A stretch of 34,790 nt of DNA from positions 1-34,790 of the forward strand of contig JAQIDB010000069.1 in the NCBI GenBank assembly GCA_027858225.1, read 5' to 3'. The notes under the pieces were generated by a model that saw nothing but the letters and a program-made list of their open reading frames with translations, did not search any database and was not told the origin of the DNA. Source of the stretch: Candidatus Delongbacteria bacterium. Lineage in GTDB: Bacteria; UBA4055. A program made the position numbers and the translations under genes. Numbering within the stretch: position 1 is the stretch's first letter; the number at the start of each line of letters is the position of its first letter. Shown here piece by piece: positions 22,688 to 31,580 of this stretch.

Positions 22688-24826
22688 CTACAATTTAAAG
22701 AATTCCCAGATTTGACCCTGAGTCGTCCGAGACAACAAGTTATCTACGAATTCCTTCTTATACAAATATGTTGAAATACCTGCCAAAACTCTTATGTGAG
22801 GATCATTTTTCTTGGTGGAAGATACAAGCATAATAATTACCTTTGTTGGAAGACCGTCGATTGAGTCAAAATCTAAACCTTCTTTTTTAAAACCAATTGC
22901 GATCTGAACATGATCAACGCCTTCTGTTCTTGCGTGAGGAATAGCCAGACCATTTTGCATACCAGTACTAATAACACTTTCCCTTGTCATTACTTCTTTA
23001 AAGATTTCATCCTTGTTTGTTATCTTGCCATTCTTTTCCAGAAGATGAACAAGCTCTTTAATAACTTCTTCCTTTGAATTTCCCTGAAGTTCGAGTTTTA
23101 TACAGTTCGGATCTAAAATCTGTGAAATATCTATATTTATCCTGGCTTTCACATCTGGAGGCATTACTGTCTTTCTCAATTCCTCAGGATTAGTCATATC
23201 CTTTAGCTTGTCAAGATTGTACTTAAGCTTCAGGAATGATTCGTAGATCATTGTTCTCACAAATGCCATATCCTCAGAGCTAGTACTAAACACTATTTTG
23301 TTGGAGTGTTTATCCAATTTTACGAATATATCATCTTTTCTGATGTGATAAATTTCATGATCCAGAGTAATCTTATTAATAAAAAATCCTTCGTTATCAA
23401 AGTACTTGATTATGTATGATTCGAAAAATTCAGTTCTCTCTTCACTCTCCAAATTCAATTCGTATGTTTCACTTTCCTGACCTTTAACTTCTTTCTTTGT
23501 TCCACGAGTCTTATTCTTTAGAGTAAGATTAAACAGAGGAGGTGAAATCAAAATACTCATCAATATCATCATTATAGCGATACCATAAATCTCCGAATCA
23601 ATAAAATTATTCGATAAACCGATACCTGCAATTATAAGAACAACCTCTCCCCTTGGAACCATCCCAAGTCCAACCCTCAAACTTCCAATTTTATTAAAAC
23701 CTGTGAAGAATGCTGGAATACCACATCCTAATACTTTTCCAAGTATTGCAACAATACCATAAACAAAACCAATTAATAATATTTTTCCATTAATTGCATT
23801 TAAATCAACCATCATACCCATTACTGTAAAGAATATTGGCACAAAAAAAGCTTTTAGTGGATGGATAGTATCTTGGATTACATAATTAAGGTCTGTCTTG
23901 GACAGAGTTAATCCCATCACATAAGCACCTATAATCATTGCAAGTCCTGCACTTTCAAATATTCCGGCTAAGAATAATGCAAGTCCGAATGATAGAACTG
24001 TAAAAGTATATTTATCTTTAAAAAATTTTAAGAATTTACTAATCTTATTAGCTAGTAATAATCCTACCACAGTAAATCCTATCCAAACGGATATTGCTTT
24101 TGTAGAAATAACACCTATTTCAACCCAGTCGATCTCACCTCCACCTACTAAAACAGCTGAGACACCAAGAATAACTGCTAATAATACGATTCCCAACACA
24201 TCATCAATTATAGCAGCAGTTAGAATAGTTACCCCCTCAGGAGAATCCATATATTTCTTTTTCGTAAGGATCCTAGCAGTCACACCCACAGAAGTCGCTG
24301 TACTCATTACTCCGAGAAATAAACATTTAGGGTCCATAAAATGAAGATCAAAAAGATACATTCCAGCTATTACACCAGAGAAGAAAGTTCCTATTAGACC
24401 ACCTAGACCTACAATTGAACCTGTAACTGAATATTTTTTCAACAAGTTAATATCAGTTTCTAGTCCAGCTATGAAAAGTAACATAATTGAGGCTATAACT
24501 GACACACCATATATTTCAGTACTTATAGGAATAAGACCTTCATTTAATGGGAAAAACCCATGTGGAAAGCCTAAGAATGCAAGAGGAACTTTTCCAAGTA
24601 AATATGGACCGATCACGATACCTGCAGTAAGCTCACCCAAAGTAGTTGGGAGGTTCAATTTTTCAAATAATAATCCGAAAAATCTAGCAGCAAATATTAT
24701 CAAACCCAAATGAAATACAAAGGATGTCATCAGATGAATAATATTATCTTGTTGAGGTACATGGTCTGAGGCGAATATCAAGGTGCCGAATATTAAAACA
24801 TATAATATAGATTTTTTTAATTTCAT
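22688..24826 (-). CDS. CPA2-type cation/proton antiporter with C-terminal PTS EIIA domain
   Basis: Membrane transporter of 712 residues. An N-terminal signal-like helix and about twelve further helices (roughly 30-440) carry CPA2 features: LPTTLGELTAGIVIGPYLLG, AGLETDINLLKK, and the ion-binding-region ATSVGVTARIL and AAIIDDVLGIVLLA (Asp-Asp). After a charged linker, residues about 565-712 form a nitrogen-type EIIA domain with NGLAIPHART, the phospho-acceptor His near 631. Such fusions link ion exchange to PTS phosphorylation. It overlaps the lipoprotein upstream by 4 bases (ATGA). Exchanged ion (Na+, K+) cannot be told. Confidence 0.9.
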   Translation of the reverse strand: MKLKKSILYVLIFGTLIFASDHVPQQDNIIHLMTSFVFHLGLIIFAARFFGLLFEKLNLPTTLGELTAGIVIGPYLLGKVPLAFLGFPHGFFPLNEGLIPISTEIYGVSVIASIMLLFIAGLETDINLLKKYSVTGSIVGLGGLIGTFFSGVIAGMYLFDLHFMDPKCLFLGVMSTATSVGVTARILTKKKYMDSPEGVTILTAAIIDDVLGIVLLAVILGVSAVLVGGGEIDWVEIGVISTKAISVWIGFTVVGLLLANKISKFLKFFKDKYTFTVLSFGLALFLAGIFESAGLAMIIGAYVMGLTLSKTDLNYVIQDTIHPLKAFFVPIFFTVMGMMVDLNAINGKILLIGFVYGIVAILGKVLGCGIPAFFTGFNKIGSLRVGLGMVPRGEVVLIIAGIGLSNNFIDSEIYGIAIMMILMSILISPPLFNLTLKNKTRGTKKEVKGQESETYELNLESEERTEFFESYIIKYFDNEGFFINKITLDHEIYHIRKDDIFVKLDKHSNKIVFSTSSEDMAFVRTMIYESFLKLKYNLDKLKDMTNPEELRKTVMPPDVKARINIDISQILDPNCIKLELQGNSKEEVIKELVHLLEKNGKITNKDEIFKEVMTRESVISTGMQNGLAIPHARTEGVDHVQIAIGFKKEGLDFDSIDGLPTKVIIMLVSSTKKNDPHIRVLAGISTYLYKKEFVDNLLSRTTQGQIWEFFKL

Positions 24827-25696: not shown

Positions 25697-27751
25697 TTAT
25701 TTTTTTATATCAGTCACTGCGACAACATAGTAAAATCTTCGACTTTGGCTGTAAGCAATTCTCCAACTTTCACCATCATATGTTCCTACATCTAAAACAT
25801 CTTCAAATATTCCGTACGGATCTTCAGAAGCGTAAATTTTATAAGATGTTGCTCCGATCACAGGATCCCAGGTCAATTCAAGATAATTCCCAATAATTTC
25901 AGTCTTGATGTTCTTTGGTATTAAATGACTTCTCTGATCTTCAAATGCTCCCATATCAATAATTTCATTCATTATTCTAGGATTTCCAAATAGATCGAAC
26001 TGAGGTTGAAAAAGTTCTATTTCTGCACCTGAATCTATACAAACAGAACTTTCTGACAGACCACCGGGAATAAATTGAGTTTCATCAAATGATGGATCTG
26101 CATCAATATTATTATTATACCCATAAATCCCCTGAATGTCATTATTATAGGTAAAATATTCTTTATTCGAGTGAACTTGTGGTGTTATTCCTTCAGGACT
26201 GTTTCTTATAATATTATTCACAAAATAAGGCTTCGATCTAAAATTGAATACTGCACCCTGAGTATAGATCCCACTGGTTTCATAAATATAATTATCTATA
26301 GCTGTATTATTGTAAAAGTATGAATACGAATTAATAAAACATGCAACCGGACCATTATGCTGAGCATAGTTTTGATAGAAAAGATTATTATTTATTTGTG
26401 GCTGACAATTGGCAACTCCGATTGCTGCACCATAAAGAGCTGTATTGTATCTAAAAATATTGTTCTCAATAATTAATTTGGAAAAATTATTAATGAATAT
26501 AGCTCCACCGTAATATCCTGAAATATCCCATTCATCGTAACTGATCTTCTTTGCGTACTCAAATACCGCATATTTTATTGATGAACTATCGTTGGTGGAA
26601 AGAGTTTTATCGAAAACTAAACCTGCCCATGAGTATTTAATATCTGTATAATTATCCACAGGATCAGGATTTTCTGATGTAAATATAATTCTTTCATAGG
26701 CAGTACCTTCAGCGATTAAGGTTCCTTCAACATTTATTTTGTATGGACCTGTAAAAGAAAATACTGTACCTGCAGAAATTTTCAATGTAGTGCTATTATA
26801 AATAATTAAGTCGCTGGAAACTGAAACAGTATCGGCTTTAATTAGAGTATTCTCAGTAATGTTACCCTCTAAATTTATCTTATTTCCCTGCAAGACATTT
26901 GTGTAAGTTTTAGAAACTTTTATTTCCTTATCTTTAGCAATATAATATGTTTCACATCCGTACCCTTTCGCAGGTGATCCTTCTTCCAATCTAAAATCAA
27001 GCCCGTCAGGATTGATCAGCAGAGGATCTATATTTGTTATGTTATTATTAGGTGCCAAACTGGCATCTGCCCACTCTTGTGGTGGACCTCAACCATACTC
27101 TCAAAGCATTGAGAAATGTATCATTGGTTCATCAATATAACGATCGTTATAACTCCAATTCTCAGTGATCTCTGGAATGCCAAACCACGGAAACATCGAA
27201 AAAGAATAACTGGTTCCTGTTCGTAAAAAATCTGTCGGCAAGCTGTTATATTGAGGAAAATCAGGACCTGTAGTAATGCAGTTAACTACTAAATTTTTGT
27301 TGATTTCCATATCCAGTCCTGCACTTTCTAATCTGACACCATAATCAATGGAATTGTAAAATGTTACATTTTTTATAGAACCAAAGGGTATTATATAACC
27401 TCCCGCACCATTTGAACAACCGCTAAATCTAACTGTCCCATTTAAAATCACACAGCTGTCGATATCCAATTTATTTCCGGTATAACCAAAATTTATTTGA
27501 CCGTTCTTTAGATCAATTATTGCACCATACCCTTCGATCTTAACATTTATTTCATCTAACTTTTCATCATTGTATGTAAACGGATTGTAAAACCATCCTA
27601 AAAAAATACCGCCTTCATATACTTGACCTTTCTCAAGAATTACGACTTTATCATACTCCCCCGACGGCTGCCCAAGATCGTATGCTTCCTTTAATGTCAT
27701 TGCAGACAAATTTATTATCAGGATAAGTACTATTGAAATATATGATTTCAT
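25697..27751 (-). pseudogene. secreted beta-helix protein interrupted by two in-frame TGA codons
   Basis: One reading frame of 684 codons, broken by TGA at 27101-27103 and again at 27089-27091. Part one (27751-27101) has a signal peptide (YISIVLILIINLSA) and beta-helix coils. Part two (27088-25697) continues without frameshift, with right-handed parallel beta-helix repeats (NNLFYQNYAQHNGPVACFIN), DPLL and EGSPAKGYG motifs of that fold, and an FN3-like C-terminal domain (LELTWDPVIGATSYKIYASE to FYYVVAV). Intact it would be a surface-exposed polysaccharide-binding or adhesin-like protein. A GGAAG ribosome site precedes the start. TGA is a normal stop elsewhere here (rsmD and others), so loss of function is the plain reading; readthrough remains possible. 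Confidence 0.75.
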
Positions 27752-27983: not shown

Positions 27984-30900
27984 ATGTTAAAAAAAATCAG
28001 TATGATCTTTCTGATGCTTACATTAAGCGTTAAGTTATTCTCATTCGCAGGTGGGGACGGAACTGTAGGTGATCCTTATCAAATTAGTAATGTTGATGAG
28101 CTTCAAAACATGAATTTGTTCAAGAGTGCAAACTATATCGTTATTAACGATATTGATGCAAGCATTACTACAACTTGGAACAGTGGACAAGGATTTATAC
28201 CTGTAGGCTACTGGATGAATGAATTCACAGGTACATTAGATGGTCAGAATTACATTATATCTAATTTGTACATAAATAATAGTAATAATGACACTGGATT
28301 ATTTGGTATTATCTATTATACTGAAATTGCTAATATTATTCTGGAAAATGTTGATTTTACGACATCGCAATTCTCGGGTGGTTTAGTCGGTGTTAACAAC
28401 AATAGTACTATTAATAATTGCCATACATCTGGAAGTATTATTTCGGATGAAGTTTCAGTTGGTGGTTTAGTAGGATATAATGATTCTGGAATTATTAATA
28501 ATAGCCATAGTGCATGCAATACTTCTGGAGGATACAGGGTTGGTGGTTTAGTTGGAAATAATAATGGAAATATAACCAACAGTTATAGTGAAGGGAATGT
28601 ATCTACTACGAGAGGTCCTGCAGGTGGATTTACGGGATTTGTTTTGGGTGGTAATATCTTAAACTGCTATTCTTTAGGTAATACTACTACTTTAATTAAT
28701 AGTATCAGTGGTGGTTTTATTGGTCAAGTTTTTTTGGATATGGATTCAGTGATAATAACAAATTGCTATTCAAAAGGTATTGTTACTGGAGATTCTTTAG
28801 TTGGTGGGTTTATTGGAGGTAAAGTAGACTTAGGGGGACCCGAAGTAATCACCAATTGCTATTGGGATATTGAAACATCCGGACAGGCAACTTCAGAAGG
28901 TGGAACAGGTAAAACAACTGCTGAGATGAACACTCAAGCGACCTTTTTAAACTGGGATTTTGCAACACCTGTGTGGGAGATACATTCTGCTTTAAATAGT
29001 GGATACCCATATTTAGAGTGGCAAGGACTAGTACCACCTTTTGCAGGTGGAGACGGAACTGTAGGTGATCCTTATCAAATTAGTAATGCTGTCGAGCTTC
29101 AAAATATGAATTTGGTTTTGAGTGCAAATTATATCATCGTTAACGATATAGATGCAAGCATTACTACAACTTGGAATAGTGGAGCAGGATTTATACCTGT
29201 TGGTGATGATACCAATAAATTTACTGGTACATTAGATGGTCAAAACTACACTATCTTTAACGTGTATATCAACAACATAACTCATTACAATGGGTTGTTT
29301 GGTGCAATCGATCATACTGAAGTTTCTAATATTATACTAGCTAATGTTGATATTACTACATCAAGTTTTTCAGGTGGTCTGGTAGGATTTAACAATTATA
29401 GTACTATTAACAATTGCCATACAACTGGAGATATTACTGCAAATGGAAGTGCTATTGGTGGATTAGTTGGAGAGAATCGTTTTGGGGAAATAAATAATAG
29501 TCATAGTTCATGCAATACTTCTGGAGAATACGAAGTTGGAGGTTTAGTAGGAGTTATTAATGGAAATATTAGCAATAGCTATAGTGAAGGGAATGTTGAA
29601 AGTACTTTATGGGGTATTGTAGGAGGATTTGCAGGAAGAATTTATAGTGGTGACATTTCAACTTGCTACTCTTTAGGAGATGTAACAAGTTTTGATGGAA
29701 GTGCAGGCGGTTTTATTGGTAATTTCGATGCAGTGGATGGAGAAATCAATATTATAAATTGCTATAGTGAAGGAAATATTATTGCTACCGATGGTATAGT
29801 AGGTGGCTTTATTGGTCAATCCTGGGTTGATATGGGATCAGTTACTATTACAAACAGCTTTTCTACTGGTTTTGTAGACGGAGTTTCTGGAACTGGTGGT
29901 TTTATTGGTAATTCTATGAGCATGATGGGAACAATCGATATAACAAATTGCTACTGGGATATTGAAACTTCAGGACAAGCAACTTCAGACGGTGGAACTG
30001 GTAAAACAACTGCTGAGATGAACACTCAATCAACCTTTACTAACTGGGATTTTACTACTCCTATATGGATTATACATTCTGCTTTAAATAGTGGATACCC
30101 ATATTTAGAGTGGCAGGGACTAATACCACCTTTCGCAGGTGGCGACGGAACTGTAGGTGATCCTTATCAAATTAGTAACGTTGATGAGCTTCAAAACATG
30201 AATTTGTATTTGAGTGCAAACTATATTGTTGTAAATGATATTGATGCAAGTATTACAACCACTTGGAATAGTGGAGAAGGATTTATCCCTATAGGCTATT
30301 GGTTGAATGAATTCACAGGTACGTTAGATGGTCAGGATTACACTATCTCTAACTTGTACATAAATAATAGTAATAATGACACTGGGTTATTTGGTATTAT
30401 CAAAGATACTGAGGTTGCTAATATTATACTGGAAAATGTTGATTATACGACATCCGATTATTCTGGTGGTTTAACCGGAGTTAACAATAACAGTACTATT
30501 ACCAATTGCCATACGTCCGGAAGTATTACTTCAGATGGATATACAGTCGGTGGTTTAGTTGGATTTAATGATAATGGAAGTATTTATAATAGCCATAGTG
30601 AGGGCAATACTTCTGGAGGATCAAAGATTGGTGGTTTAGTTGGAGATAATAGTGGAAATATTGACAATAGTCATAGCGCATGCATTACTTCTGGCGAAAG
30701 CCATGTTGGAGGTTTAGTTGGAAGTAGTTTGGGAAATATTAACAACAGCTATAGTGAAGGAGATGTTGTATCAAGCATTGATTATGGAGAAGTAGGAGGA
30801 TTTGCAGGATATGTTTTTGCCGGCAATATTTCAAATTGCTATTCTATAGGGGATGCAACAAGCTTAAACGGTAACTGTGGTGGTTTTATAGGTTTTATCG

Positions 30901-31580
30901 ATGCGATGATGGAAACAGTCACTATTACAAACTGCTATTCATTAGGAGATGCTTCAACTTCTGGAGGCGTAGTAGGTGGATTTATTGGTAATTGCATGTC
31001 TTTCTCAATGGAACCAATCACTATTACAAACTGCTTTTCTACTGGTTTTATGACAGGAATTTCATCAACTGGTGGATTTATTGGCGAAGATATGAGTATG
31101 GAACCATCGCTTATTACAAGCTGCTACTGGGATGTTGAAACTTCAGGACAAGCAACAAGTGTCGGTGGAACTGGTAAAACAACTGCTGAGATGATGGTAC
31201 AAGCGAATTATGTGAGTTGGGATTTTACTACTCCTATATGGAATATACATTCTGCTTTAAATAGTGGATACCCATATCTAGAGTGGCAAGGGTTAATTCA
31301 ACCTTTAAGTGCACCTCAAAATGTTGTAGCTGAAGTTGTTGGATTAGATTTTAATTTAACTTGGGATGCTGTTAGTGGAGCAACAGGATATAAAGTATAT
31401 GCCTCTATAGATCCTAATGGTACTTATGCTGATATTTCTCTTGATGGAGTATTTGGTGAAGAAAGTTGGAGTTACGAGTATATCGATAATAAAATGTTCT
31501 ACTATGTTGTTGCTGTAGATGGCGGGAAATTGCCAGTGACGAAGAAGAACGTTATCAGAAACAACAGCAAAGTAAGATAG
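27984..31580 (+). CDS. secreted GLUG-repeat surface protein
   Basis: 1198 residues. After a signal peptide (1-20) come three long tandem repeats starting FAGGDGTVGDPYQISN at residues 21, 353 and 717 (about 332, 364 and 390 residues), each a run of GLUG motifs such as VGGLVGYNDSGIINNSHS and a closing CYWDIETSGQATS. From about 1108 an FN3-like domain (NLTWDAVSGATGYKVYASID to FYYVVAVDGG) ends the protein, resembling that of the divergent neighbour at 25697. GLUG proteins are IgA-peptidase-like or adhesin surface proteins; the exact ligand is unknown. AAGGAG precedes the ATG. A terminator follows at 31600. No sortase or type IX sorting tail is evident. Confidence 0.85.
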   Translation: MLKKISMIFLMLTLSVKLFSFAGGDGTVGDPYQISNVDELQNMNLFKSANYIVINDIDASITTTWNSGQGFIPVGYWMNEFTGTLDGQNYIISNLYINNSNNDTGLFGIIYYTEIANIILENVDFTTSQFSGGLVGVNNNSTINNCHTSGSIISDEVSVGGLVGYNDSGIINNSHSACNTSGGYRVGGLVGNNNGNITNSYSEGNVSTTRGPAGGFTGFVLGGNILNCYSLGNTTTLINSISGGFIGQVFLDMDSVIITNCYSKGIVTGDSLVGGFIGGKVDLGGPEVITNCYWDIETSGQATSEGGTGKTTAEMNTQATFLNWDFATPVWEIHSALNSGYPYLEWQGLVPPFAGGDGTVGDPYQISNAVELQNMNLVLSANYIIVNDIDASITTTWNSGAGFIPVGDDTNKFTGTLDGQNYTIFNVYINNITHYNGLFGAIDHTEVSNIILANVDITTSSFSGGLVGFNNYSTINNCHTTGDITANGSAIGGLVGENRFGEINNSHSSCNTSGEYEVGGLVGVINGNISNSYSEGNVESTLWGIVGGFAGRIYSGDISTCYSLGDVTSFDGSAGGFIGNFDAVDGEINIINCYSEGNIIATDGIVGGFIGQSWVDMGSVTITNSFSTGFVDGVSGTGGFIGNSMSMMGTIDITNCYWDIETSGQATSDGGTGKTTAEMNTQSTFTNWDFTTPIWIIHSALNSGYPYLEWQGLIPPFAGGDGTVGDPYQISNVDELQNMNLYLSANYIVVNDIDASITTTWNSGEGFIPIGYWLNEFTGTLDGQDYTISNLYINNSNNDTGLFGIIKDTEVANIILENVDYTTSDYSGGLTGVNNNSTITNCHTSGSITSDGYTVGGLVGFNDNGSIYNSHSEGNTSGGSKIGGLVGDNSGNIDNSHSACITSGESHVGGLVGSSLGNINNSYSEGDVVSSIDYGEVGGFAGYVFAGNISNCYSIGDATSLNGNCGGFIGFIDAMMETVTITNCYSLGDASTSGGVVGGFIGNCMSFSMEPITITNCFSTGFMTGISSTGGFIGEDMSMEPSLITSCYWDVETSGQATSVGGTGKTTAEMMVQANYVSWDFTTPIWNIHSALNSGYPYLEWQGLIQPLSAPQNVVAEVVGLDFNLTWDAVSGATGYKVYASIDPNGTYADISLDGVFGEESWSYEYIDNKMFYYVVAVDGGKLPVTKKNVIRNNSKVR
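28044..31305 (+). repeat. three tandem coding repeats of the GLUG protein
   Basis: Copies begin at 28044, 29040 and 30132 with nearly identical DNA (GCAGGTGGxGACGGAACTG) and run to 31305. Copies 1 and 3 share the most, including GGCTAYTGG-type segments missing from copy 2. The near identity at their starts suggests recent duplication or continuing recombination between copies. Confidence 0.85.

Follow-up and report, generated by a model that had tools for sequence, protein, structure and literature searches.

A predicted selenoprotein with two in-frame UGA codons from a beta-helix-like, probably exported protein family in Candidatus Delongbacteria

The window, by which we mean the whole analysed stretch of 34,790 nucleotides, comes from a draft metagenome-assembled genome (MAG) of Candidatus Delongbacteria (2.4 Mb, 204 contigs, 79% complete). 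On its minus strand, a frame of 684 codons runs from 27751 to 25697, and its sole interruptions are TGA codons at positions 217 and 221, which are separated by three codons in the motif LUEYGU. The first-pass annotation had described two in-frame TGAs in an otherwise open 684-codon gene, with one frame on both sides and no indel. Both statements agree with our reading, and no frameshift was found. In the absence of recoding, ORF finding cuts the gene into one piece at 27101-27751 (216 aa) and a second at 25697-27058 (453 aa) that begins with a TTG start at 27058. The features of the locus are as follows.

25697 to 27751, minus strand: gene of a predicted selenoprotein of 684 aa, including two selenocysteines (Sec), from the open frame and its homologues
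27101 to 27103, minus strand: UGA codon 217 (site 1), predicted Sec from homologue comparison, Cys in CxxxU relatives
27089 to 27091, minus strand: UGA codon 221 (site 2), predicted Sec from homologue comparison
27069 to 27087, minus strand: hairpin 1 (GTCCAC/GTGGGC), directly after UGA 221, from folding; partly forced by Pro...Trp codons, role uncertain
27053 to 27065, minus strand: putative SECIS apical hairpin UGCC-AGUUU-GGCA, from the SECIS rule, covariation and the SelD loop class

The predicted protein starts with a hydrophobic, signal-peptide-like N-terminus, followed by beta-helix-like repeats. Pfam gave no match on the window protein. Members of its family score at, above or just under threshold on beta-helix and choice-of-anchor-Q models; with NF041518 (choice-of-anchor Q), the window copy reached 24.8 bits (cut-off 25) and locus L114 reached 34.5 bits. 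Coil ends of the form DPLF...SPCID are common to this family and to right-handed beta-helix and choice-of-anchor Q proteins (PF13229, NF041518), but ordinary beta-helix members that align at the DPLF turn lack the C/U motif. Several Delongbacteria relatives share with type IX secretion (T9SS) cargo a sorting domain (TIGR04183, PF18962), which exceeded the cut-off in L097, L080 and L096 and was not found in the window copy. At the position of this tail, the window protein carries instead a C-terminal domain of ∼70 residues that recurs about two dozen times elsewhere in its own genome and is possibly an alternative sorting or anchoring domain. Copies of it lie at 25700-25920 and at 31311-31520, the second within the neighboring gene at 27984-31580. 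An FN3-like end had been noted before; this label was assigned by eye and has no Pfam match behind it.

Are the two TGA codons shared by relatives of the gene? Homologues from the same phylum, at 34-65% identity, have TGA at the matching codons. The motif LUEYGU recurs in G001 (65% identity), G009, G010 and one paralogue of G007 (C76), and G004 has LUDTGU; these five genomes belong to the family-level group of the source genome, and all five genes have TGA at site 1. In total, TGA at site 2 was found in 23 genes in 20 genomes, that is, in all members found except one all-Cys paralogue. Site 1 is Cys in two further paralogues of G007 (C102, MCDEGU; C106, LCETGU) and in all members outside the phylum. 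A fourth G007 paralogue (C32, VPEUGU) is a UxU variant, and a fifth (C151, L096:1171-2298) is the all-Cys copy, which is free of TGA and has CCESC at the matching position. Besides this copy, its genome contains four Sec paralogues (UxxxU, UxU and CxxxU motifs). As far as the predicted residues go, the exchange of Cys and Sec at site 1 between these paralogues shows a Sec position in flux. A narrower alignment scan of genome contigs yielded three Delongbacteria loci, one of them in a genome of the same genus, and no relative was found in the viral contigs searched.

Outside the phylum, a search of 20 genomes of the phylum of G351 revealed 10 homologues, each of which (10/10) carries exactly one TGA, in CEY[GA]U. 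The motif is CEYGU in G351 and nine more genomes of its phylum, except that one of them, G389, has CEYAU; G110 and G406 have CPYGU. At a contig end (L119:1-461), a second G110 gene fragment has TAG in CP*GU. The codon is TAC in L116, and the TAG probably reflects an error at the contig end or a variant copy. Short distant relatives have CWSU (G113) or CGGU (G115). These are beta-helix proteins of ∼245 aa (L117:1465-2211 and L118:1189-1917) from two unrelated genomes, with SECIS-like hairpins, and are candidates for a second, related selenoprotein family. Beta-helix and tail matches outside the family, of which the homologue table contains dozens, showed only occasional TAA or TAG. The segment across both TGAs (EYG...PxxW) ranks with the best-conserved parts of the family, and the motif precedes an invariant W and a DP turn.

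The alternative residue bears directly on how the TGAs are read. Exchange between TGA and Cys is the classical mark of selenocysteine. The first-pass annotation had suggested that TGG-to-TGA changes would account for both codons; in the homologues examined, TGA or Cys occupies both sites and neither TGG nor Trp was found at either, which goes against a Trp reading. Its other option, local recoding, which it raised without naming selenocysteine, is the one that the homologues favor. Its argument that two TGAs so close together exceed chance is likewise strengthened by the retention of TGA at site 2 in so many genes, several of which have TGA at site 1 as well.

Comparison with G001 yielded a pN of 0.19 and a pS of 0.68 over codons 222-606, and a pN of 0.22 and a pS of 0.81 for the part before the TGAs. 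The codons downstream of the TGAs are under purifying selection. Around the TGA site, pS against G001 was lowered to 0.34 (versus 0.68-0.81), a dip that is expected of an RNA signal overlapping the code; against G009, pS around the site was 0.74, with no dip.

Bacterial SECIS elements follow a rule of a 3-9 nt loop with G[G/U] in its first positions and a stem of at least 4 bp, placed 16-37 nt after the UGA (PMC13188914). The loop of the putative SECIS hairpin lies 27 nt after UGA 221, in keeping with the rule, and 39 nt after UGA 217, just outside the published range. Hairpins that fit the rule were present in 14/14 genes tested. Most Delongbacteria have UGCC-GGUUC-GGCA or a variant, G351 and G222 have GGCC-GGA-GGCC at 20 nt, and G113 has GAGAG-AGUU-CUCUC. 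As a positive control, SelD genes of the same genomes showed AAGUCC-GGA-GGACUU or a GUC loop, a loop class that matches the family hairpin. Across eight Delongbacteria genes, all 40 cells of the stem alignment were paired (100%), 3 of the 5 pairs had changed on both sides, and the covariation score, which none of 500 shuffles reached, was lost when the partner strand was slid. The same residues, A-S-L-A, are encoded by GCC AGT TTG GCA in the window and by GCA AGT CTT GCT in G007:C106; the codons differ and both versions pair. Synonymous-shuffle tests on single genes gave modest values, from 0.001 to 0.18 (0.0145 for the window), as can be explained by the conserved protein motif that constrains the same bases. 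With such values the hairpin alone is not proof, and its agreement with the other lines of evidence carries the case. In the window, the upper stem alone folds at −4.5 kcal/mol and a longer stretch at −14.6 kcal/mol, and the published energy threshold of −7.5 is reached only by the longer fold. An Rfam scan of the window gave no match.

Hairpin 1, which the first-pass annotation had noticed after the second TGA, does fold, but the fit to the SECIS rule belongs to the next hairpin, at about 27065-27053. We also considered hairpin 1 as the SECIS of UGA 217 throughout the family and rejected it: G009 and G007:C32 are the only genes in which its loop fits G[G/U], and Pro and Trp codons partly dictate its stem. 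Hairpin 1 is probably not the SECIS apical hairpin.

The source genome encodes SelA (548 bits), SelB (332 bits versus a cut-off of 242), SelD (358 bits) and tRNA-Sec (54 bits versus a cut-off of 47 with the Rfam model), the full set looked for in a host that inserts Sec. Its SelD has one in-frame TGA, at the GUAGK site, and is thus itself a TGA-containing selenoprotein. The anticodon loop of the tRNA-Sec, read directly from the sequence, is C-U-UCA-A-A; ARAGORN made no call on this copy, which the Rfam model called over cut-off, and reported tRNA-SeC with anticodon tca in G008, G004, G007 and G001. Our survey of SelA, SelB, SelD and tRNA-Sec covered Delongbacteria genomes: SelA and SelD were found in 6/6 of those tested that hold the family, and SelB was only partial in G009 and G010, both of which are fragmented assemblies. 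Beta-helix genes beside SelB in the source genome have no comparable internal UGA. TGA also serves as an ordinary stop, ending 4/32 long ORFs in the window, and genome-wide recoding is excluded, as the first-pass annotation had held. A lipoprotein gene, for instance, ends in a TGA at 24823-24826 that overlaps the ATG of an antiporter-like neighbor in an ordinary ATGA junction, so that TGA is a true stop there.

Could the TGAs be damage rather than code? The draft state of the MAG, and the single base that separates TGA from TGG, would suit a pseudogene or an assembly or sequencing error with two TGG-to-TGA changes. However, independent assemblies from different genera and phyla show the same TGAs, Cys and never Trp is the alternative residue, and the 684 codons show no other lesion and a low pN/pS after the TGAs. 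Two TGAs would not persist in a decaying gene through divergence to 34-65% identity. We judge damage to be extremely improbable and, on the conservation of the TGAs, already refuted.

Two further explanations accept the TGAs as genuine, and we give each of them very little weight. The gene might encode two proteins, with a true end at codon 217 and a downstream part re-initiated at the TTG that opens the 453-aa ORF, but the highly conserved EYG...PxxW segment spans both TGAs, and the frame is open through site 1 in CxxxU relatives and throughout in the CCESC copy. The minority use of TGA as a stop in the window would be compatible with regulated readthrough or with a UGA reassigned to some different amino acid (Trp, or Cys via another tRNA), and a Cys-inserting suppressor could also yield UGA/Cys exchange. 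Against this, a full Sec system with tRNA-Sec(UCA) is present, and the SelD of the same genome uses UGA at an established Sec position, next to a hairpin that shares the loop class.

Taken together, the conserved pattern of TGA and Cys, the hairpin and the genes of the machinery argue that both in-frame UGAs are, with near certainty, decoded as selenocysteine. The UGA is conserved in frame with both of its flanks across homologues, and Cys replaces Sec at site 1 in several relatives and at both sites in L096. SelB and tRNA-Sec(UCA) would insert Sec at both UGAs, directed by the hairpin just downstream. One hairpin may serve both codons, perhaps with hairpin 1 shortening the path to UGA 217; alternatively, hairpin 1 could itself serve UGA 217, a possibility whose loop fits the rule only in the two genes named above.

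What might such a residue pair do? Under the Sec reading, the window protein would be exported via its signal peptide, with relatives passing onward via type IX secretion. The U-x3-U pair, which directly precedes the conserved W...DP turn, would form a surface selenol pair. This pair may form a diselenide, or a selenylsulfide in CxxxU relatives, and act in thiol/peroxide redox chemistry or soft-metal binding. A redox or soft-metal role is the most likely one, given the general chemistry of Sec pairs and the exchange with Cys; for a redox role taken singly, the chances appear roughly even. AlphaFold predictions for the whole protein and for its N-terminal 273 residues, built on an alignment of four sequences, were unusable (pLDDT of 45 and 35), and with such models the loop position and its chemistry are read from sequence alone. 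Gene context gives no function, as no neighbor is conserved across five loci. At one of them, a gene that by eye resembles thioredoxin reductase (L098:5570-6502) shares the strand of the G009 homologue and lies ∼95 bases downstream of it; none was found at the other loci.

Most characterised selenoproteins have a thioredoxin-like fold, and a 2026 catalogue lists 119 prokaryotic selenoprotein families in a table without a beta-helix entry (PMC13188914). Neither a thioredoxin-like nor a rhodanese domain was detected in the window family, and no selenoprotein model was among its NCBIfam and Pfam matches. The closest parallels are the double-Sec families of Table 1 in that catalogue (among them Prx-like UxxU of the SelL type, NF041115 with UxxU, and TsoB with UxxxxU; PMC13188914), which are likewise bacterial, with two nearby Sec and Cys exchange. 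The window family differs from them in its UxxxU spacing (UxU in one paralogue) and its beta-helix-like, predicted exported protein. CxxU-type selenoproteins (GrdA, AhpD-like, the TonB-dependent receptor FCYxU family, NF049945) also place a Cys ahead of Sec within a short motif, and the TonB-dependent receptor family is extracytoplasmic as well. Their folds differ, however, and here the motif is CxxxU in the long members, with CxxU confined to the short relatives from G113 and G115. In the open-access literature, we found no relevant paper on selenoproteins with a beta-helix and none linking selenoproteins to Delongbacteria; an earlier description elsewhere is possible. The predicted exported, beta-helix-like family with its UxxxU or CxxxU motif thus appears to be undescribed.

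We consider it somewhat probable that these genes represent a selenoprotein superfamily, hitherto undescribed, that is built on a beta-helix scaffold, occurs in several candidate phyla and is often type IX-secreted, and in which C-x(2-3)-U has become U-x3-U (and U-x-U) in Delongbacteria and two UGAs 12 nt apart are read from one SECIS hairpin, with an extra hairpin shortening the distance. As automatic annotation splits genes of this kind in two, the family has probably gone unnoticed wherever it is present. A surface or secreted beta-helix selenoprotein that carries an adjacent Sec pair would broaden the view of where, and for what, bacteria use selenium, and the double UGA would be a natural experiment on whether a single bacterial SECIS is able to serve two codons 12 nt apart.
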